This document shows positions 33,643-42,555 of a stretch of 64,000 bases of DNA, in pieces. The notes under the pieces were generated by a model. That model was not told where the DNA came from. It made no database searches and was given only the letters and a program-made list of their open reading frames with translations. Each line of letters opens with the position of its first letter. Position 1 is the first letter of the stretch. Source of the DNA: Thermococcus thioreducens. GTDB lineage: Archaea; Methanobacteriota_B; Thermococci; Thermococcales; Thermococcaceae. Position numbers and translations under genes: made by a program. The stretch is from NCBI RefSeq assembly GCF_002214545.1, contig NZ_CP015105.1:992001-1056000 (forward strand). Direction: 5' to 3'.

Positions 33643-33719
33643 GGGCCCGTGGTCTAGATGGTTATGACGCCACCCTTACAAGGTGGAGGTCCGGGGTTCG
33701 AATCCCCGCGGGCCCACCA
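33643..33719 (+). tRNA. tRNA-Val (anticodon UAC), CCA encoded
   Basis: The acceptor stem GGGCCCG pairs with CGGGCCC. The anticodon arm CCACC-CTTACAA-GGTGG has TAC in the loop. The T arm CGGGG-TTCGAAT-CCCCG is perfect, and the gene ends ACCA. Its 3' part from the anticodon arm onward is the attachment core of the integrated element, and the gene remains complete after integration. Confidence 0.97.
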
Positions 33720-33842
33720 GTTCTCGATTAACCGCCAAATAACATCCTCATACGTTTCTCCCAACCGACCAATCCGCCTCAACTCCTCCTTCAACTCCAC
33801 ACTCACCCAAATAGTCGTATTCCGTCTTGCTTTCTCCCCCAC
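33654..33842 (-). pseudogene. Integrase N-terminal fragment (intN) at attL
   Basis: Start GTG 33842 has GGAGGT 7 bases upstream. The protein starts GEKARRNTTIWVSVELKEEL, resembling a ribbon-helix-helix segment, and runs through the att core as WWARGDSNPGPPPCKG before a stop inside the tRNA gene. The same eight-plus residues occur at the attR end in the intC frame, so joining the two across the att core restores one integrase. This split is the hallmark of SSV-type integrases. Confidence 0.88.
33672..33722. repeat. attL: 51-bp core in tRNA-Val
   Basis: The 51 bases from ACCCTTACAAGG to CCCACCAGTT are identical to 41862-41912. They cover the anticodon loop to the 3' end of tRNA-Val plus three bases. 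Confidence 0.97.
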
Positions 33843-33857
33843 TGCCAGCACCTCCGA

Positions 33858-33881
33858 CTATAGCGCCTATAGCGACTATAG
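33858..33881. repeat. Three CTATAG boxes at 9-bp spacing upstream of intN
   Basis: CTATAG occurs at 33858, 33867 and 33876. They lie 16 bases before the intN start, where they could serve as TATA/operator sites for integrase control, perhaps for one of the excisionase-like proteins. Confidence 0.5.
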
Positions 33882-34029
33882 GGGATACGTATACACAATT
33901 ATGCCCCATCCTACATAGGACTTGTCCAGAAAGAAGAACGACTAAAACAAAGTGAAAATGAGGAACCAGCCCGGGCGGGACACAAGAGAGCGAGAGGCGA
34001 GGAAGGGACAAAACCTAGGGCATAGTAAT

Positions 34030-34971
34030 CTATAGTAGTTCTACCCTCTCTCCCTGACTCCTCTTCCGCCTTACTTGGACGTCATATCCTGGCCACGGCA
34101 GATACTCAAACCGGAAGAAACCATACCTCCCCCACTCGATATAAGCGTATCCATCATCCAGCATCGAGACGTAACCTTGCTTGACCTTTGACCCCTTCCT
34201 GACCTGGGCTCCTCTCAGGTAAATATAAGCTGGAATTTTCGTGCGAATTCTCCAATCAACGTTGCTAACTGTATGAGTCGAGAGGACAAGGGATACTAGG
34301 GCCTTCCTCAAGTCTTTGAGGATATCTTTGACCCAATCCTGAAGGGTGAACTGAGTGCCCGGTGCAGTTTCAGGGAAAATATCATCAGCTTCATCGATGA
34401 AAACTGCATACCACTCTCTATCATCACGAGTGAGTAGGCAGTAGAGGAGCTCAAACCAGAAGTAGACAGGCCTGTCTTCCTCCAGTTTCTCTGGTGGGAT
34501 AACCCTCCCAGTCTTCTCCTTCACATCCTTGGCTAGCTCTGGGGAGACTCTATATGAGGCAGGCTCATAGATGACGTTAATCTTGTCCTTACGGAGTTTC
34601 CGAATGGCATCCTTCGCATCCCTGTACCTGACGACGGGAACATCAATCACTTCTGCTTCTCCTCCATAGGGAATTTTGAGGAACTCTACTTCATCGTCCT
34701 CATGCACTAGTATCTGGATCTTCTTCTCCCAGTTTGGAAACTTGTGCCACTGGGCAAGGAAGCGGCCACGCCAGATAACGTATTCTTCGCCCCTGAACCG
34801 TAAGGCCAGTCTGCCCATTAGTGAAGTCTTCCCAGCCCCTTGTTCCCCAGTAATCATGACAAGCCTGCCGCCCCTTCCGGGATTCCTCTCTAGGAGCCTG
34901 TCCAAGAGTTCAGCACCAATCTGAGCAGCAATCTGGGCTCCACTCGCCAGGGACAAGATACCACGCTTCAT
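34030..34971 (-). CDS. P-loop ATPase of the element (313 aa), possible packaging or DNA-transfer ATPase
   Basis: Walker A is ITGEQGAGKTSLMGRLALR (around residue 43) and Walker B is WYAVFIDEADDIFPE, followed by a sensor-like SLVLSTHTVSN. The beginning (GAQIAAQIGAELLDRLLERN) and the C-terminal beta-rich tail are not diagnostic. The general form resembles Zot/FtsK-like ATPases of archaeal viruses and plasmids, but the exact family is not certain. ATG 34971 overlaps the stop of the upstream coiled-coil gene. Confidence 0.8.
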   Translation of the reverse strand: MKRGILSLASGAQIAAQIGAELLDRLLERNPGRGGRLVMITGEQGAGKTSLMGRLALRFRGEEYVIWRGRFLAQWHKFPNWEKKIQILVHEDDEVEFLKIPYGGEAEVIDVPVVRYRDAKDAIRKLRKDKINVIYEPASYRVSPELAKDVKEKTGRVIPPEKLEEDRPVYFWFELLYCLLTRDDREWYAVFIDEADDIFPETAPGTQFTLQDWVKDILKDLRKALVSLVLSTHTVSNVDWRIRTKIPAYIYLRGAQVRKGSKVKQGYVSMLDDGYAYIEWGRYGFFRFEYLPWPGYDVQVRRKRSQGERVELL

Positions 34972-35207
34972 CCCACGTCACCTCCCAGCTCTTCTATGAC
35001 CCTCTCCAGAATCTCTAACTGTCTCTTCCTCTCCTCCAACTGCTCCTGAAGAGAGATGACCTTCTCCTCCAGTGCTGAGACTTGAATCTCTATGAGCTTC
35101 TTTCGGGCCTTCAAGTAGTTTTGGAGACTCTGGGGGCTACCATGGGTCTTGATGTTCTTCGGAATCTTCACTCCTGCCTCTTCTACAAGGCGGATAACCT
35201 CTTCCAT
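34968..35207 (-). CDS. Coiled-coil protein (79 aa) coupled to the ATPase
   Basis: The N-terminus is MEEVIRLVEEAGVKIPKN. Residues ~30-75 form a heptad-rich helix (VSALEEKVISLQEQLEER and further leucines). It may be a partner or oligomerisation adaptor of the ATPase. ATG 35207 has GGTGAGGGG just before it; the longer frame to 35246 crosses the promoter. The direct repeat ATTGTAC at ~35219-35235 and the shared GTCCAAAAAG box (35248-35258) lie upstream. Confidence 0.72.
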   Translation of the reverse strand: MEEVIRLVEEAGVKIPKNIKTHGSPQSLQNYLKARKKLIEIQVSALEEKVISLQEQLEERKRQLEILERVIEELGGDVG

Positions 35208-35247
35208 ACCCCTCACCAATTGTACATAATTGTACGTTCTACACATA

Positions 35248-35258
35248 CTTTTTGGACA
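35248..35258 (-). promoter_or_regulatory. Shared GTCCAAAAAG promoter box (1 of 3)
   Basis: Read on the minus strand as TGTCCAAAAAG, 41-51 bases before the coiled-coil gene start. The same box occurs at 38516-38526 and 39801-39810 before other leftward genes of the element. Confidence 0.65.
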
Positions 35259-35308
35259 TTCTAGAGGTACAGAAACATGGAGATATGTGGCCGTGTAAAA
35301 GATAGAAG

Positions 35309-36073
35309 TCAGAGTTGAGTCTTAACATAGTAGATAATCAGATTGTCAACAACTTTAGGAATCGTCTGGTTCCACCCGCTCCCAGTATCAGCTTCAATCA
35401 ACTTCTGGAGAAACTCTCTGTTTTCTTCGACAAACTCTCCTGCCCAACGATGAATTGTTAAGAATGCGCACTTCTCAATTTCCAGCCAGAAATCAGGAAT
35501 TCCTAGGGCCCTTATAGTGTAGGTTCTATCAATAGGGACTATAAGGTTAGGGAAGAGGAAGTGCATTAGCTTCGAGTTCCCAACCAACTTAGTCTTAGTG
35601 CGCGTCACTTTCAAACTCCCATAGAACCTTAGTACATTCATTACTGTTGGACTATTCACATCTTTAAATACTTCAATAGAAGATTCCAAGAGAGAGCCAT
35701 CAATCAAACTCACAGCGCTCTGGAGCTCTTTCTTGAAGTCATCATACTCCTTCAGAGAGGCTCTTCTCTTGTTCATTCCCCAACTTTCTAAAGTCTCGTA
35801 GAGGACCTTTGGTAGTTCATCTCCCATTAAGCCCTTCCTCATATTTTCGGGAGTGGATTTCTTAGTGAATTCTAGAACCCTAAGATAAGCCTCTAAATCA
35901 TGGGCTCTTTCAGTACTATTTGCTTTGGCATTCAACTCCTTCACAAAATCCATCACATCTTCCTTGACCTTCCGCCTGAGCAGATTAGCAAGAGCTGTGG
36001 ATCTCTCACTTACTCTTCGTTGGAACTTGTCAAAATTCCTGTATACAGACCTCCCTTGAATACACTCTTCCAT
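35309..36073 (-). CDS. Unknown protein of the element (~254 aa) with a PIDRTYT motif
   Basis: A mostly helical protein. The central GNSKLMHFLFPNLIVPIDRT followed by YTIRAL resembles a motif (SK-lHhl-P-l-PIDR-YT) that I recall from uncharacterised proteins in bacterial defence islands; this is memory-based, not searched. The C-terminal part is acidic and aromatic. The frame is open to a TTG at 36187, but neither start has a good ribosome binding site; ATG 36073 is used here. It is separated from the ATPase/coiled-coil transcript by a promoter. Confidence 0.6.
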   Translation of the reverse strand: MEECIQGRSVYRNFDKFQRRVSERSTALANLLRRKVKEDVMDFVKELNAKANSTERAHDLEAYLRVLEFTKKSTPENMRKGLMGDELPKVLYETLESWGMNKRRASLKEYDDFKKELQSAVSLIDGSLLESSIEVFKDVNSPTVMNVLRFYGSLKVTRTKTKLVGNSKLMHFLFPNLIVPIDRTYTIRALGIPDFWLEIEKCAFLTIHRWAGEFVEENREFLQKLIEADTGSGWNQTIPKVVDNLIIYYVKTQL

Positions 36074-36430
36074 AATACAGTAAGCGAAGTTTTTCCTAAT
36101 AGATGTTTCGTGTCGTTGAGGATATGGGTTGGGGGATGTGAGGACGCGTCCAGCCCCTCCTGATTTCTTTCTACTCTCTAAAGTCAAGGACTAGGGAAAG
36201 GAGAGGGCTGCACACTAGGAATACTCAGTGGCTAGTAGTTCAGAAAAAATCCTGCAAGTTTGTGAAGCGGTTGATTTGGAAAATCAGGATTTTCCGAGAA
36301 GTTTGATTTTGGAACGCATAATATAATAATATGCAAATCTCCATTTTGCGTTGAGTTTTTAATCTCGTCAAGATGCCAAGTTCTCTGGAAGAAAAGTTTT
36401 TAGAGGACAGTAAGAATTTTTCTGAACATA
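36074..36430. other. AT-rich intergenic tract with a perfect inverted repeat; possible origin
   Basis: The stretch 36188-36430 has no gene. It contains GGAAAATC-AG-GATTTTCC (36278-36295), a perfect 8-bp inverted repeat, then an A/T run ATAATATAATAATATGC (~36319). It lies at the 3' end of the helicase gene. Such a palindrome plus melting tract is what a replication origin would look like, but terminator or operator roles are equally possible. The part from 36074 to 36187 may be the start of the unknown protein gene. Confidence 0.4.
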
Positions 36431-38242
36431 TTAGCTGTGAACATAGAGGAAATACTTCTTGGGTCTTCCACGTTTTCCGCTCTTCTTGGTATAAACGGTA
36501 AACTGGTGGGACAACTCCTGTATGACCTTGCTAAGTATTGGTTCAGCGAACCCACAAGCTTCAAGATACTGCCTAACTTCCGAGAATGGCACATAGTCGT
36601 CGTCATAGTTTACTATAAATTCTGTCGCCCTCTTTATGGCCAGTTTTAGTGTTGCAGGAGTTTTAGGATACCGCTTGACCTTCTTGATGTCGTCGAGTGT
36701 TTTAACTGAGAGCATAGGTTCAAGGCGTTCTGGGAGTAGGCCAAACAGGAACGTTACAGTGTCCTCGCTAAATGGCCTAATCCTGAAGATTGCTTGAAGT
36801 TGTGTCTCATCCTCCCAATATTTCCTAATCTCGTCAATGTCTGGGAGGGCTTGGCTACTGTACTTCCACCTGCTGTCCTTATCCCGATAAGACTGTATGC
36901 CAATGGTGTCGGGGTCAATCAGGAAGTAGGAGAGGAGGATTTCCCGGAAAGCGTCAGGCCCGACAGTGAATGTGCCGACAATGAAGAGAAACTTCAGGCC
37001 TTCAAAGTCCCTGCTACTCCTCAGGCTTGAGCCGAAGTGCATTGTCCTAACTGTGAGGTCGTGATATCCATGTTTTTCTAGGCCTCTTTGGATGAGGATA
37101 CCTAGTCTGTCTTCGAATTGTTTGTAGGTGATTATGGGGACTATTCCACGATTGTCTATGACGAATTGGGGATAGAGGTATTCCACAATCTTCACTATCT
37201 TCTTGGCAATGCCCTCAAGCGAAGGTATGTTCTGGTTAGCAAGGGTCTGCTTTGTGTATTTAGCCTGTGGAATCTTCTTAGGCACAACCCTCACGACAAC
37301 ACTACTCTTTGAGGACTCGTGGACTGGTATCTCGATAATCTCGGGGTCTGGGAGGTCCATGTTGTAAACAGGGTCTATAGTTGCCCTCTGCTTCAAGTAT
37401 TCCCACACAGCCTCGTTGAAAGAGGCGTCGGTGTTGATGACCTTTGCTCCTTTCTTCCGAGCATACTCGAAGAGGAGCAGAGCATAGGGGATGACAACCT
37501 TGTCGAGAGAGTTAGGAACTTGCTGGGAACGGGCATACCTGAGGTAGAGGCCAATTTCACATGGGCTCTGTGCGAATAAGTCTCTCACAGCCTCTCGTAC
37601 AAAGTCGAGGTCAGGAGCGTGATACAAGTTTTCTAGGAGCTTTCTTTGTAGTTCAACTGTCAGCTCCTCACAGTGGTTGATGTAGTCATCTTCAGTGAGA
37701 TCTCGCCCAAGAGCTATAGAATGCAAGTGCATGACCTTAGGGTCAGGAGGCTCAATGACTTTTCCGTTGAACAGGGATTCCTCGGCTATGATAACATCAG
37801 GTTCAAGGCGTTCGAGTTGTTTTGTCTGAAGATAGGCGAGTGGAGCGAGAACTACCCTTTTGTCCTCCTTAAAGGCTTGGTGATACGGGCAATTAGCATA
37901 CGTGTTAGGGAATTTCTCCTTGCAGATAGAGCATGCAATTCTGGGAGGGAAGCCACGGAAGACGTCAAGGTGTTGGCAAGACCGCTCGAAGCCCTTCCAG
38001 TGGACAACTTCACTGGAGGGCAGAAGTCTCTCATACAAGTCGAGGATGGTATGAGCTTCAGCAAGGATGAGGAACTTTTTCTCGCTCTCTGATTTGATTA
38101 GTTCGATGTTTCTGTGAGTCTTGCCAGAACCTGGGAAAGACTTGTCCACGATAAACTCGATGGTTGGGTCTTCAACTAGTTTCCTAAGCCTCCAAAAAGC
38201 CTTTGTACGGTGACCAGCATAAACACTACTGGGCTCGGGCAT
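36431..38242 (-). CDS. XPD/DinG-like superfamily 2 helicase with predicted Fe-S cluster (603 aa)
   Basis: Walker A is SFPGSGKTH (K41). Between it and motif II are four cysteines, C89, C104, C107 and C118, spaced C-x14-C-x2-C-x10-C and followed by PYHQ...VVLAPLAYLQ; this is the layout of the 4Fe-4S domain of XPD/Rad3 helicases. Motif II reads DVIIAEES (149-156) instead of DEAH, so hydrolysis may differ. The C-terminal helicase domain is diverged, and the last ~90 residues look like a winged helix ending in a basic KSGKRGRPKKY. It is probably the element's replication helicase. ATG 38242 follows GGTGAAAGGT. Confidence 0.78.
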   Translation of the reverse strand: MPEPSSVYAGHRTKAFWRLRKLVEDPTIEFIVDKSFPGSGKTHRNIELIKSESEKKFLILAEAHTILDLYERLLPSSEVVHWKGFERSCQHLDVFRGFPPRIACSICKEKFPNTYANCPYHQAFKEDKRVVLAPLAYLQTKQLERLEPDVIIAEESLFNGKVIEPPDPKVMHLHSIALGRDLTEDDYINHCEELTVELQRKLLENLYHAPDLDFVREAVRDLFAQSPCEIGLYLRYARSQQVPNSLDKVVIPYALLLFEYARKKGAKVINTDASFNEAVWEYLKQRATIDPVYNMDLPDPEIIEIPVHESSKSSVVVRVVPKKIPQAKYTKQTLANQNIPSLEGIAKKIVKIVEYLYPQFVIDNRGIVPIITYKQFEDRLGILIQRGLEKHGYHDLTVRTMHFGSSLRSSRDFEGLKFLFIVGTFTVGPDAFREILLSYFLIDPDTIGIQSYRDKDSRWKYSSQALPDIDEIRKYWEDETQLQAIFRIRPFSEDTVTFLFGLLPERLEPMLSVKTLDDIKKVKRYPKTPATLKLAIKRATEFIVNYDDDYVPFSEVRQYLEACGFAEPILSKVIQELSHQFTVYTKKSGKRGRPKKYFLYVHS

Positions 38243-38276
38243 ACCTTTCACCTTGAATCAGTTTTTATTGGTGTTC

Positions 38277-38471
38277 TCAGTTTCTTGATTTCTCGGGATT
38301 GAGGAGCCTCTCGACTTCCTCCCTTGGGATTCTCCACCAGCCTCGTTTAGTGGGTTGGATTGCTTTGATTTTGCCCTCCTGAACCCAGCCAAAGACGGTC
38401 ACGTAGTGGACACCGAGCATCCTAGCAACTTCCCCAGTTGTGTAGTACTCTTTTTCAAGTTTGATGGCCAT
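38277..38471 (-). CDS. Excisionase/MerR-like HTH protein (64 aa)
   Basis: YYTTGEVARMLGVHYVTVFG is the classical HTH of MerR/Xis proteins, followed by WVQEGKIKAIQPTKRGWWRI, the wing. Size and fold fit an excisionase or small repressor. AGAGGTGAG precedes ATG 38471. It has its own GTCCAAAAAG promoter box and is followed by the helicase after 34 bases. Confidence 0.88.
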   Translation of the reverse strand: MAIKLEKEYYTTGEVARMLGVHYVTVFGWVQEGKIKAIQPTKRGWWRIPREEVERLLNPEKSRN

Positions 38472-38515
38472 GTTGTCTCACCTCTAATATTTCTTGTATC
38501 CTTAGTATACATAAC

Positions 38516-38526
38516 CTTTTTGGACA
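38516..38526 (-). promoter_or_regulatory. Shared GTCCAAAAAG promoter box (2 of 3)
   Basis: Minus strand TGTCCAAAAAGG, followed by TTATGTATAC. It lies 45-55 bases before the 64-aa HTH gene. Confidence 0.65.
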
Positions 38527-38587
38527 TACCTGGAAGCTTTATTTAGTCATCAAAACCCTAAAATGCCCAAGAATAGAAAAAGAGGAT

Positions 38588-38818
38588 TCAATGTTTCTCC
38601 TTTAGCATGACCATTGCCTCAAGCACATCAAGGTCCTTTTCGGTTATGCAGGGGTTGAGGCGTCTTAGGAGTCTCAGAACCTCACTCCGAGGTATCATAG
38701 TTTTGCCGTCAATGACTTTGTACTTGAGCCTCCCAGAAACTGTTGCCCAGAAGACCTCTTCTTCGGGAACCATGAAGATTCTAGTAAATTCTTGAATTGT
38801 GTAGTACTTTTTCGCCAT
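38588..38818 (-). CDS. Excisionase-like HTH protein (76 aa)
   Basis: KKYYTIQEFTRIFMVPEEEV followed by a wing segment (SGRLKYKVIDGKTMIPRSEV) repeats the HTH17/Xis layout in diverged form. A short helical tail follows. GAGGGAGG is 3 bases before the ATG, which lies inside the 3' end of the triple-HTH gene, so the genes are coupled. DNA target unknown. Confidence 0.78.
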   Translation of the reverse strand: MAKKYYTIQEFTRIFMVPEEEVFWATVSGRLKYKVIDGKTMIPRSEVLRLLRRLNPCITEKDLDVLEAMVMLKEKH

Positions 38819-39362
38819 ATTCCTCCCTCAGTATCTCTTTTGCTTTCTCCAATTCACTCTTTGGGATGTACCATCTCTTACCTACCGCGACGCCCTGAAT
38901 TTCTCCACTTAGAATCAAGTCAACTATCCGGCCTACTCTCCTCCTAGGAATTCCGAGGACTTCTACTAGCTGGGACTCAGTGTAGAGTTGTTCTGGTGGG
39001 AGTTGCCTTGCTTCTAGGAGCATGTCAACTACTTCTTTTGGGATTCTCCAGTGTTTGTGGAATGAAGGTTGGACTGCCCTAATTTTGCCTCTTCGAATCC
39101 ACTCGTAGACTGTGTTTCGTGTCACGTTGAGGATTTTTGCGACTTCTCCAGTAGTGTAGCAGTCTTTTGACCCCATCATCTTCTTGAGGCGTTTGACCTC
39201 ATCCTTGTGAATCCAATAATACATACACTTCTTGTAGCGAGTTTTCAGGGCGTTGACCTTCCTTTTTTCTATCAGTGTGTAGAGTCTGAAGATGTCTATG
39301 TCCAACTCTCGTGCCACTTCTCTTGGGCTATAGTATGGGCCTTCAGGTCTTGGTGTAGCCAT
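38781..39362 (-). CDS. Protein of three tandem excisionase-like HTH domains (193 aa)
   Basis: Three copies of the same fold in one chain. Domain 1 (~residues 10-60) has YYSPREVARELDIDIFRLYT. Domain 2 (~65-115) has CYTTGEVAKILNVTRNTVYE and the wing KIRAVQPSFHKHWRIPKEV, very close to the 64-aa protein. Domain 3 (~125-185) has LYTESQLVEVLGIPRRRVGR and VAVGKRWYIPKSELEKA. Such a protein could bridge several sites or form filaments as lambda Xis does. ATG 39362 has AGGAGGTG upstream; GTG 39371 is less likely. Confidence 0.85.
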   Translation of the reverse strand: MATPRPEGPYYSPREVARELDIDIFRLYTLIEKRKVNALKTRYKKCMYYWIHKDEVKRLKKMMGSKDCYTTGEVAKILNVTRNTVYEWIRRGKIRAVQPSFHKHWRIPKEVVDMLLEARQLPPEQLYTESQLVEVLGIPRRRVGRIVDLILSGEIQGVAVGKRWYIPKSELEKAKEILREEYGEKVLHNSRIY

Positions 39363-39567
39363 TAGCCTCACCTCCTATAACCCTCATCTCAAGGATTTGT
39401 CCTTTTCTAACAACAGCATAAGGGCTCTTTCTCTTTGACCTAACAAGTACGACACAATCTGCAAGGTATATGAAGAACCTGTCTTCGTGCTCTAGTGTCC
39501 CAATGTACTTTGCTCTGGGAGTTGTTAAGTAGACTTGTTTTCCTACAAACTTTTCAAACTGCTTCAT
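39343..39567 (-). CDS. LSm/Sm-fold-like protein (74 aa)
   Basis: Residues 8-45 follow the Sm1 pattern: FVGKQVYLTTPRAKYIGTLE then HEDRFFIYLADCVVL. The G, alternating hydrophobics, YxGxL, D and the LxD ending all fall in place. VVRKGQILEMRVI (~52-65) sits where Sm2 should be, though without the usual IRG. An RNA-binding ring is therefore plausible. AAAGGAGGTGA precedes ATG 39567. It overlaps the genes on both sides, so it is part of the regulatory operon. Assignment by pattern only. Confidence 0.62.
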   Translation of the reverse strand: MKQFEKFVGKQVYLTTPRAKYIGTLEHEDRFFIYLADCVVLVRSKRKSPYAVVRKGQILEMRVIGGEANGYTKT

Positions 39568-39746
39568 GGTTTGTCACCTCCTTTGCCATTGTTGTTCAGC
39601 AACCTGTCTAGCTCTTCTACTGTGTTGATGGCCTCCTCTAGGTTCTTTCCAACGCTTCTCCAGTACCTTGACACTCTCGTGGCCCTGATGTAGTAGAGGT
39701 TTGTCTTTAGGCTTTTCACCAACCGGCGGGCTTGTCTTACATCCAC
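39564..39746 (-). CDS. Small basic helical protein (60 aa), first gene of the leftward operon
   Basis: Start GTG 39746 has GGTGAGG upstream. The protein (VDVRQARRLVKSLKTNLYY near the start, ending NNNGKGGDKP) is basic at the front and helical, with no recognised motif. Its stop overlaps the LSm-like gene start. An operator-like inverted repeat and a GTCCAAAAAG box lie upstream. Confidence 0.68.
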   Translation of the reverse strand: MDVRQARRLVKSLKTNLYYIRATRVSRYWRSVGKNLEEAINTVEELDRLLNNNGKGGDKP

Positions 39747-39764
39747 GAGTCCTCACCCCGCTCC

Positions 39765-39779
39765 GTTAGTGATACTAAC
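39765..39779. promoter_or_regulatory. Operator-like inverted repeat GTTAGT-GAT-ACTAAC
   Basis: Perfect 6-bp arms with a 3-bp spacer, 19 bases before the leftward operon start and just after the expected transcription start. It is a likely repressor site in the divergent control region of the element. Confidence 0.55.
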
Positions 39780-39800
39780 TGTCAGTAAGCGGTAGTTAAC

Positions 39801-39810
39801 CTTTTTGGAC
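39801..39810 (-). promoter_or_regulatory. Shared GTCCAAAAAG promoter box (3 of 3)
   Basis: Minus strand GTCCAAAAAG followed by GTTAACTACC, 55-64 bases before the first gene of the leftward operon. Confidence 0.65.
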
Positions 39811-39901
39811 TTTTTCTGGTATTCAATGTAGGAACTACATCTGCAGAAGTCTCCAAAATTGTAGTATACAATAACCAGCTAATTTTCTATTGGTGAGAGC
39901 C

Positions 39902-40194
39902 ATGTCCCTCTGGAACAGACCGATACAGGACCAGGAACCTCATCATCTTCACAAACATACCAGTCATCTCCATTTGTAACTCAAGAGGAAGACAAGAAGG
40001 ATGAGACTACTTCTACAACAATCCAGAGACATGAGACAAGGCCAGAGAAGATTTCAGACCCAACACACCGCCGCAGGGAGAGCCTCCCACTGCCTGATGT
40101 TCCTGTCCAAACAAAGCCAAAGAAGAACCATAATTCAACCCCTTCACTTCAACTATTAAGAGGTTATTCAGACCGTATCCCGCAACATATGTGA
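39902..40194 (+). pseudogene. Possible frameshifted gene of the element
   Basis: An ATG at 39902 has GGTGAG 4 bases upstream but its frame ends after 25 codons of odd composition. The neighbouring frame is open for 101 codons (39892-40194) with a hydrophilic, Ser/Thr/Lys/Pro-rich product (for example SSSSQTYQSSPFVTQEEDKK and ESLPLPDVPVQTKPKKN) but has no start codon. One single-base shift near 39930 would join them. It may be a decayed structural gene, or simply a real gene with a sequencing error. Confidence 0.4.
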
Positions 40195-40199
40195 GGCAC

Positions 40200-40364
40200 T
40201 TGAGTGCTCTACCAACAGAACCAAAGACCCGTAAAAGAAAATCCCGGAAGAAAGTTAAGAAGGCTAAGAAATCTTTTAAATGGCAAAAAAGAGTTCAGTA
40301 CTCTTACTACTTGTCAGGGTTTGGGAAAGCTATGAGCATGATGAACTTGTCAGGTCTAAGGTAG
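40200..40364 (+). CDS. Small, very basic protein (54 aa), tentative
   Basis: A TTG start at 40200 follows GTGAGG and lies 5 bases past the preceding stop. The product begins SALPTEPKTRKRKSRKKVKK, then AKKSFKWQKRVQYSYYLSGF, ending MSMMNLSGLR. The run of lysine and arginine fits nucleic-acid condensation or virion packaging. An overlapping frame (GTG 40204, 43 codons) is less convincing. Confidence 0.45.
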   Translation: MSALPTEPKTRKRKSRKKVKKAKKSFKWQKRVQYSYYLSGFGKAMSMMNLSGLR

Positions 40365-40386
40365 TCCGGAGTTGAACTCCATCTAC

Positions 40387-40425
40387 CTCTACACTTCCTC
40401 TTGTTTTTCTAGGGTAAGTGTAGAG
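40387..40425. other. Stem-loop with 10-bp perfect stem
   Basis: CTCTACACTT (40387-40396) and AAGTGTAGAG (40416-40425) are perfect complements around a T-rich 19-base loop. It lies in the 160-base gap between two small plus-strand genes. It could be a terminator or a replication/processing structure. Confidence 0.5.
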
Positions 40426-40528
40426 AAATCCTGGAGAAAATCTACACATACAGTATGAAAGTGTAAGGTTTCCAATCACCAAAACCACTACATACTAGGA
40501 GGGCCAAAATCAAAATGGTGAGGGGAGG

Positions 40529-40747
40529 ATGTTGGGCTGGTTATTCGGCAAGAAGACAACAGAAGGTATAATCAAGTCCATCGCCAAAAACAGCCCAAAC
40601 TTTAAAGAGTGGCAAAGACTTGAAAAGAGGAAACTACAACTTCTCGACAAGAGGGCTGAGTTAATAGAGGGGATTAACAGGATTGACGCTGAAATTCGGA
40701 TGATTGAGTCCTACCAATCCATGCTGATGAGGCAAGATACCCTGTAA
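40529..40747 (+). CDS. Small coiled-coil protein (72 aa)
   Basis: GGTGAGGGGAGG precedes ATG 40529. The N-terminus MLGWLFGKKTTEGIIKSIAK is amphipathic, and residues ~30-65 form a coiled coil (RLEKRKLQLLDKRAELIEGI and onward). No known family is recognised. It is a plus-strand gene near attR, with the small membrane protein next. Confidence 0.7.
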   Translation: MLGWLFGKKTTEGIIKSIAKNSPNFKEWQRLEKRKLQLLDKRAELIEGINRIDAEIRMIESYQSMLMRQDTL

Positions 40748-40884
40748 CCTTATTTTCTCACCACTTTCTTGTTGCCAAGGGCTGGTTGTATTCAATTAGA
40801 CTACTGTCGAATGCTAACTAACAACTTGACGAACAGAAAGCTTTTTGTATTCCGCGGCGTGAAAGTATTATGTAAGGAGGTGAT

Positions 40885-41010
40885 ATGAGAATGTTCCGAA
40901 AAGGAACCGGAGAAATAGACAAAGCTACTGAACTTGTAGGGGCAGCGATAGTGCTAGTTGTTGGGGCATATGTCATCTACCAGATAGCAATTACCCTTTT
41001 TGGGTCTTAA
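40885..41010 (+). CDS. Single-span membrane peptide (41 aa)
   Basis: AAGGAGGTGAT before ATG 40885 is a strong ribosome binding site. The product has a charged start (MRMFRKGTGEIDKATE) and one hydrophobic span (LVGAAIVLVVGAYVIYQIAI) ending LFGS. Size and shape fit a viral envelope/structural peptide, holin-like or pilin-like protein. The stop overlaps the intC 3' end on the other strand by 4 bases. It is too short for standard gene calling. Confidence 0.65.
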   Translation: MRMFRKGTGEIDKATELVGAAIVLVVGAYVIYQIAITLFGS

Positions 41011-41912
41011 CCCCCTAATCTTTCTATTTTAACTGCCCTAATTAGTCTATTTACATTTTCCTTGTAAGCCCGCTTAGCTTGGTTAAACAGGTTGATGTAG
41101 TGAGTTGCTAGTATATCCCCACTCTGGCTATGTCCGACCATGAACTTGACGACACTCTCCTGAACTCCTGCTTCAATCATTTTGTTTATGAACCACTTCC
41201 TGGCATACTTCAAGGGAAGGCCACGCTTGACGTAGTAGCTCCCGACAGCATCATAGGTAATCTTGAACCTCCTCAGCTTTTTCGCCAACTCTACTGGCAT
41301 AAAGACGTAGTAGCTGATTTTCCCGCCCCTCCTCCAGCCAAGCTCGTAGTAGGCGATATTACCGTCAATGTGGAGTTTCGCCTTGTCGAATGTGTTCACC
41401 AGCTTGATAGCCTCTTTGATTCGTATCCCACTAAAGAGGCAGAGGAGGCCGACAATCAGCATCTCTTCCCTCTCGACCTTGGCTAATGCCTGCCTGACTT
41501 CCTCATCACTCGGCAACCTGACGTCAATCCCGTCAGGCCGCTCTCTCAGGAGTTTCAGGAGGCTTGCTGCGAACTCCTCACTAATCATTCCATTTTCTAG
41601 TTCAAACCGGATTAGTGCTCGGATACTCCTAACGAAGAAGTTCCAGCGGCCACTCTTGCCATTGTCAACCTTGGTGAGGATTCCTCTCAAATCGGCCGGG
41701 CTCTTGATGTCAGCCTGTCCAACGTACTTGTCTAGGTAGCGGATATAGTCCCGAGCGACATCCCTACTGAGACGTTCATGGAGGTAGTGGGCGAACTCGT
41801 CCCTGACGGTGGCGTATTTGAGTGTATCCGCTGTTACGTTGGCTGTTTGGCGGTTTAGCTGACCCTTACAAGGTGGAGGTCCGGGGTTCGAATCCCCGCG
41901 GGCCCACCAGTT
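41007..41912 (-). pseudogene. Integrase C-terminal catalytic part (intC) at attR
   Basis: Tyrosine recombinase domain. CLFSGIRIKEAIKLVN carries the first catalytic Arg, YARKWFINKM and FMVGHSQSGD carry the middle Arg/His box, and ATHYINL carries the nucleophilic Tyr. It enters through the att core as WWARGDSNPGPPPCKG, the same residues as at the end of intN. The open frame continues past attR to 42161 but that part is host sequence. There is no start of its own, so it is restored only after excision. Confidence 0.92.
41862..41912. repeat. attR: 51-bp copy of the tRNA-Val 3' end
   Basis: Identical to 33672-33722. It carries only the tRNA 3' part, so no functional tRNA is made here. Confidence 0.97.
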
Positions 41913-41913
41913 A

Positions 41914-42530
41914 CAAACTTCGCCTGCGCGAAGTTTGATCAAGGTTTGTGGCTCTTTCTTGGAGCTTGCATCTAAAGTGTGATTGTCGCTAAATTCAACC
42001 TCCAGAGTGTTGGAATCTGCTATAGGGTTCCCTTTCGTGAGGAGTTCACTTTTAAACCGACGCCCAAAGGGCGTCAATGGGAAGGAACTCCTTTTAACTT
42101 GCGAAGTGAGATAGATTCCAAGGTGAAAAGCTCCAGTTAAAGTAATCACACTCAAACACATCCAAATTCAAGGAGAGCCACAAACTTTAGTGAAACTTTG
42201 CCCAGCAAAGTTTCTTTGGTGAAGCTTTTCCCAAAAGCTTCAGCGCTGGCGGAAAACAAGATGCATTTTTAAAGAGTGTGCGTTTTGAGGCGGTTTCCTT
42301 CTCATGTGCTTCTTGGGGAGTGTTTCACTCAAGAAGGCGTCCTTCGGACGCCAAAGGTAAAGTTGGAACCGCTTGAAAATGCTTGTTTACGCCTTAAATC
42401 CATAATTAGAGTTGCACTCGGTTGGTGCACGACTAATTTTCGCCCTTTGGTGCTAAGGGTGCTTTTCGGTCAAACTTTGCTTTGCAAAGTTTGTTCGCCT
42501 GCGCGACGTCGAGCTTTGCTCGACGCAAGA
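41914..42530. repeat. Gene-free array of hairpins and long imperfect inverted repeats
   Basis: At least seven perfect hairpins with 3-5-base loops: AAACTTCGC-type at 41914-41937, GACGCCC/GGGCGTC at 42059-42075, AAACTTTG/CAAAGTTT near 42193-42213, GAAGCTTTT/AAAAGCTTC at 42221-42241, GCGTCC/GGACGC at 42337-42351, CAAACTTTGC/GCAAAGTTTG at 42471-42493 and CGTCGAGC/GCTCGACG at 42507-42525. The hairpin at 42059 is the centre of ~120-bp arms (41941-42058 and 42076-42190) that share five blocks in inverted order. The one at 42337 is the centre of another pair (42254-42299 and 42366-42389). No gene is supported here. Confidence 0.8.
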
Positions 42531-42555
42531 GGCGATGTTTCTGCAATAACCCGCT

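Follow-up and report, generated by a model that had tools for sequence, protein, structure and literature searches.

Extragenic palindromes are a familiar feature of bacterial genomes, in which REP sequences and BIMEs form mosaics that often lie directly behind genes. MITEs and PATEs are likewise short and gene-less, with inverted ends and many copies, and the hairpins at the ends of IS200/IS605 elements are not inverted repeats of each other. In Thermococcus, IS elements are rare and integrase-driven recombination at tRNA genes has been published (PMC5495485, PMC8371274). The integrase of pTN3 is reported to recombine segments about 100 bp long, and inversion breakpoints have been placed in pairs of tRNAs (PMC5495485). 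A figure legend records a strictly conserved sequence immediately after tRNA-Gly genes (PMC5495485 / PMC8371274); going by the legend, this sequence might be the repeat considered here. An earlier description of such repeats was not found in the open-licence literature, and one published in a subscription journal may have escaped the search. In a word check, the main text of a T. kodakarensis transcriptome paper (PMC4247193) contained neither 'repeat' nor 'palindrom', and the passages seen mention no such units. The stretch analysed here, 41914-42530 of a 64-kb window of Thermococcus thioreducens DNA, is a mosaic of two units (A and B) of a dispersed non-coding repeat family.

Hairpins and unit anatomy at 41914-42530

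The preliminary description of this DNA counted seven or more hairpins. Seven perfect hairpins with a stem of at least 7 are present, at 41914-41937, 42059-42075, 42192-42214, 42220-42242, 42336-42352, 42471-42493 and 42507-42525. All four stem-10 hairpins of the window are located here, as are 4 of its 5 hairpins with a stem of at least 9. Every block named for the fold-back arms was recovered. Around 42067 the mirrored blocks are TTTGTGGCTCT/AGAGCCACAAA, AGTGTGATT/AATCACACT, TTGGAATCT/AGATTCCAA, AGGAGTTC/GAACTCCT and GACGCCC/GGGCGTC; a smaller pair, GGCGGTTTCC/GGAACCGC, surrounds 42344, and an AATTAG/CTAATT pair is centred at about 42421. A 32-nt inverted pair shows 81% complementarity. The folding energy of the plus strand was -243.8 kcal/mol, compared with -184.5 +/- 6.1 for shuffled sequences (z -9.8), and the minus strand gave a z of -8.95. 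The stretch holds no recognised gene, in keeping with its description as gene-free; a mechanical ORF of 109 aa overlaps it. At the gathering score of Rfam, tRNA-Val was the sole match in the whole window and 41914-42530 had none, and a known RNA family was rejected on this ground. CRISPR and tandem repeats were ruled out because the arrangement is a dyad and not one of direct repeats.

Unit A (41914-42214, plus strand) is proximal to the tRNA. Its left terminal hairpin, CAAACTTCGCCTGCGCGAAGTTTG (41914-41937), is followed by the left inverted-repeat end ATCAAGGTTTGTGGCTCTT (41938-41956), which pairs with 42173-42191. The central hairpin GACGCCCAAAGGGCGTC lies at 42059-42075, the right inverted-repeat end AGAGCCACAAACTTTAGT at 42174-42191 and the right terminal hairpin GAAACTTTGCCCAGCAAAGTTTC at 42192-42214; both terminal hairpins are perfect. 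The same order of ends and hairpins is found in 72 distinct units from T. thioreducens and related genomes, mostly 297-314 nt (about 300 nt) long. In these, a terminal hairpin such as CAAACTTTTGCCAAGCAAAAGTTTG precedes the inverted-repeat end ATCAAAGTTCGTGATTCC and a T-rich arm, the perfect central hairpin is GCGCTCCnnnGGAGCGC or GACGCCCnnnGGGCGTC (the GACGCCC and GCGCTCC alternatives), and an A-rich arm leads to the mirrored end GGAATCACGAACTTTGATG and the second terminal hairpin. Runs of four or more T are enriched in the left arm (2.6 vs 1.4 in shuffled sequence) and mirrored as A-runs in the right arm; in half of the copies the first T-run of this length comes about 43 nt from the start of the unit.

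Unit B (42220-42493, plus strand), with a left border somewhere in 42215-42242, occurs elsewhere directly behind tRNAs and an H/ACA-like RNA. Also on the plus strand, it comprises a first hairpin (42220-42242) followed by GCGCTGGCGGAA, the pair of GGCGGTTTCC (42289-42298) with GGAACCGC (42365-42372), a central hairpin (42336-42352), the AATTAG/CTAATT hairpin (42404-42438) and a terminal hairpin (42471-42493). A truncated branched terminal module (42494-42535, plus strand; hairpin 42507-42525) completes the array; the T. thioreducens genome has fuller copies of this module at 676.8 kb and 860 kb. Behind tRNA-Lys(TTT) and tRNA-Leu(CAA) of a related genome (G001), and at locus L006, the simple terminal hairpin gives way to a branched terminal module of three hairpins, AAACTTCGCCTGCGCGACGTCGAGC...GGGACGACAGTCCCGTTGAGTTTG. 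A second, unrelated-looking repeat, CGAAAGACAAGGGGGCTCCGCCCCCTTATCTCTCTGTACTCTCAAACCCCC (family C), likewise begins immediately after tRNAs and after a C/D sRNA. Its sites in T. thioreducens are at 1798.7 kb behind tRNA-Arg CCG, 2002.8 kb (tRNA-His), 2006 kb (sR36) and 467.8 kb, and it occurs at three other fetched loci (L100, L094, L302).

Distribution and position behind stable-RNA genes

A search of the genome and its relatives for the hairpin units, as the preliminary description had proposed, found many copies in both. The 617-base stretch matched 34 of 61 genomes (T. thioreducens included), all within the genus, and none of 24 genomes sampled beyond the order. A unit consensus typed from the T. 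thioreducens copies was detected in 75 of the 94 genomes of the family. With a model (R1) of the 47-nt unit end, mostly sequence with 4 base pairs, matches were obtained in 76 of the 94 genomes of the order, covering 5 of 6 genera, and in 0 of 9 genomes of genus g12. The complete 2.07-Mb T. thioreducens genome, to which Thermococcus MAGs are close in protein sequence, carries 33 unit ends at E <=1e-3 and 41 at E <=0.1 by this model, the genome searches having scored a limited number of candidates, by which weak copies may be missed. The repeat is multi-copy and conserved in relatives; it is thus not the single-copy, unconserved sequence that the preliminary description had set against its own proposals, and the guess of a repeat family of its own was the correct one.

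Units start 0-6 nt past the mature 3' end of a tRNA, behind CCA, or sometimes behind an sRNA gene or a stop codon instead. Unit A is present on 19 of the 40 transcript-terminal tRNAs of T. thioreducens, and at 18 of these it starts at -1 to +5 nt. By the default search, 14 of 20 arrays in this genome are at a tRNA, compared with 0.44 expected from random placement. The corresponding counts are 10/18 and 11/19 in two more members of the genus and 4/5 in one genome of another genus; pooled over the four genomes, 39 of 62 arrays are at a tRNA, whereas random placement would put about 1.3 there.

Six T. thioreducens arrays were not at a tRNA of the default search. Two of them are at tRNAs that contain an intron (Trp, and one with a CAT anticodon), and the third is at the tRNA-Val half in the window. 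The fourth is behind an RNA upstream of the gene for ribosomal protein L37Ae (L096, 860 kb), which ends in ACA, has no Rfam match and is, on our reading of its sequence, probably H/ACA-like. The fifth lies about 170 nt behind the C/D sRNA sR36 (2006 kb), with a different repeat between, and the sixth is a truncated unit A that begins 2 nt past the stop codon of a diadenylate cyclase gene (DacZ; L095, 1087.5 kb). An ARAGORN call of an intron-containing tRNA-Ser(aga) was rejected; by sequence it is an intron-bearing CAT (Met) tRNA. In other genomes, several of the non-tRNA exceptions examined proved to be tRNA halves adjoining integrase-bearing elements. At orthologous H/ACA-like loci (L003, L006, L015, L120) the RNA is immediately followed by unit A, by unit B or by the branched variant, depending on the species. 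Two genera have a unit at the stop codon of cbf5, which encodes the pseudouridine synthase of H/ACA RNPs: G101, from outside the genus, has one that overlaps this codon (L282; cbf5 identified by sequence), and at L027 of G015 unit B lies directly behind a cbf5-like stop codon.

On contigs chosen by the neighbouring protein DPH5 alone, and not by the repeat, unit A or B was directly behind tRNA-Val(CAC) in 9 of 13. The unit is A in some genomes and B in others, and the first hairpins differ among the carriers of A. Among 192 distinct tRNA 3' flanks, 101 carry A, 20 carry B, 4 carry C and 67 carry none, totals that give no frequency estimate since the flanks come largely from loci fetched by a match.

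In the window, the repeat is separated from the intact tRNA gene. A 51-bp direct repeat, identical at 33672-33722 and 41862-41912, brackets an element of about 8 kb (33672-41912), and its left copy falls inside/behind the intact tRNA-Val(TAC) at 33643-33719. The right copy (plus strand), an attachment site composed of the 3' half of tRNA-Val, CCA and GTT, would be the original upstream neighbour of the repeat. At the right end of the element, a tyrosine-integrase reading frame (41007-41861, minus strand), which belongs to the element and not to the repeat, matches the archaeal phage integrase family PF16795 (E 1.9e-43, 41010-41813) and reads away from the palindromes. Genomes other than this one have the repeat immediately behind an unsplit tRNA-Val(TAC) (L029, 97% over 100 nt), which argues that the element arrived after the repeat. 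Most likely, to judge from these sequences, it integrated into a tRNA-Val that already bore the repeat, displacing the latter 8 kb from the intact gene. A split tRNA adjoins a unit at four loci (the window, L131, L137 and L293). Both the tRNA half and the genome-wide placement lie outside the coordinates covered by the preliminary description and had been overlooked there.

Pairing, turnover and possible origins

The inner inverted ends were paired in 94.4% of cells, compared with 47.8-56.5% when the partner was slid by 1-3 columns. Double changes were seen in 39 cells at the unit ends vs 17.2 expected from shuffles, although the end words (GTGATT/AATCAC, GTAGCT/AGCTAC, GTGGTT/AACCAC and GTGGCT/AGCCAC) represent few subtypes and independent events are therefore fewer than the cell count. 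In the interior arms, pairing within a unit's own arms was 51.7 compared with 44.9 for swapped arms. This gain is slight, so the interior fold-back is mostly a family-wide pattern. The covariation fits an RNA structure; pairing at the level of DNA would look the same. The strand test of G.T vs A.C mismatches gave a weak, composition-biased excess (347 vs 257). The earlier suggestion of a structured RNA may hold, in that the ends covary, but the mismatch test adds little. The suggestion of a decaying palindromic element is mostly wrong. The arm interiors do diverge rapidly and truncated copies exist, but from species to species the repeat retains its ends, its length, its hairpins and the pairing of one end with the other.

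Comparison of T. thioreducens (G000) with G001 revealed exchange at the same tRNA. At tRNA-Val(CAC) the interior is the same and the first hairpin is exchanged, at tRNA-Lys(TTT) a simple hairpin is swapped for a branched one, and at tRNA-Leu(CAA) the whole unit is exchanged while the flank beyond is still homologous. Across species, what follows the same tRNA can be unit A, B or C or a different hairpin allele. The two genomes yielded no clean empty site and no target duplication, the spacers behind their tRNAs being replaced too fast.

For this multi-copy, genus-wide repeat, with its fixed anatomy and start position, its covarying ends and the replacement of units and first hairpins at the same tRNA, our own reading is that of a BIME/MITE-like palindromic repeat at stable-RNA 3' ends that turns over by cassette exchange. 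The stretch forms a two-unit mosaic of this gene-less Thermococcales repeat, docked behind stable-RNA 3' ends; that the repeat spreads and turns over as a non-autonomous element rather than being a gene has in our estimate about an even chance. Copies linked to tRNAs have tRNA 3' halves and hairpin ends in common, and ectopic recombination between them, possibly aided by tRNA-targeting integrases, could drive spread and turnover. The persistence of the repeat would be due to the safety of a site behind a transcript end and to the T-tracts on both strands, which could stop transcription from either side. Against this explanation, no enzyme moving the unit was identified, tRNA-anchored recombination does not account for the copies behind the H/ACA-like RNA or stop codons, and exchange of this kind was not caught in closely related strains.

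The units may instead be a functional 3' trailer, or a bidirectional terminator or insulator, of tRNA and sRNA genes, selected and co-transcribed with them. The fixed distance to RNA 3' ends, the covarying unit ends and the T-tracts on both strands would suit such a role, which we consider possible but somewhat unlikely, since the unit is lacking at roughly half of the tRNAs and in each of the nine g12 genomes, three types of module that share no evident sequence hold the same place, and the mismatch test for RNA structure is weak. Co-directional genes start within 300 nt of 9/40 and 11/39 tRNAs, and only 2 and 3 of these have a unit; this rarity, together with the T-tracts, fits a terminator and also the removal of harmful insertions. 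A related and more doubtful proposal is that a cassette system places and exchanges interchangeable palindromic modules at the stable-RNA 3' boundary regardless of gene sequence. The address would then be the RNA or transcript end and not a DNA motif, and the cassettes would act as bidirectional terminators or trailers.

An origin from integrative plasmids or viruses with tRNA 3' ends as their targets, as a remnant or attachment flank, appears improbable. Integrase-bearing elements do occupy the same tRNA 3' ends, as at the four split-tRNA loci, and Thermococcales att sites of up to 243 bp have been reported (PMC8371274). However, searches of 72,556 plasmid records and 50,697 phage records gave no match to the repeat, the array in the window has no recognisable tRNA fragment at its far end, units also occur at the ends of sRNA and protein genes, and the integrated element of the window is clearly later than the repeat. 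A non-autonomous HUH-class DNA transposon (a REP/BIME moved by RAYT, or an IS200/IS605-derived PATE) would explain the hairpin-bearing ends, the extragenic mosaic arrays and the copies directly behind stop codons, but this origin is disfavoured and very improbable, as the Y1 (RAYT) transposase PF01797 had no match in T. thioreducens, is also absent from several repeat-rich genomes, occurs in 25 of 94 genomes with no tracking of repeat number, and the ends are mirrored, unlike the IS200/IS605 hairpins.

Comparison with known systems

At least three modules (A, B and C) with no evident shared sequence lie directly behind tRNAs, with single cases at an H/ACA-like RNA, a C/D sRNA and a stop codon; the presence of such unlike modules there suggests that RNA 3' ends are a privileged address. 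The shared repeats also provide homology beside tRNA genes, the reported break and inversion points of Thermococcus chromosomes, and may help to explain their shuffling. T. kodakarensis, a genetic model, allows a direct test of the placement.

With the tRNA-targeting integrative elements pTN3 and pT26-2 of Thermococcales the repeat has in common its address, tRNA 3' ends. In contrast to them, it has no gene and no att-type tRNA repeat, and it is not restricted to tRNAs. It is similar to MITEs and PATEs in being a short gene-less unit with terminal inverted repeats, but no target duplication, parent transposon or longer, gene-bearing version was found among the fetched loci, and its start is fixed 0-6 nt behind RNA genes. 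The likeness to REP/BIME is that of a many-copy extragenic palindromic mosaic. There is no REP transposase in the T. thioreducens genome, and the repeat differs further in its units of about 300 nt, its hairpin-bearing inverted ends, its anchoring at stable-RNA 3' ends and its archaeal host.
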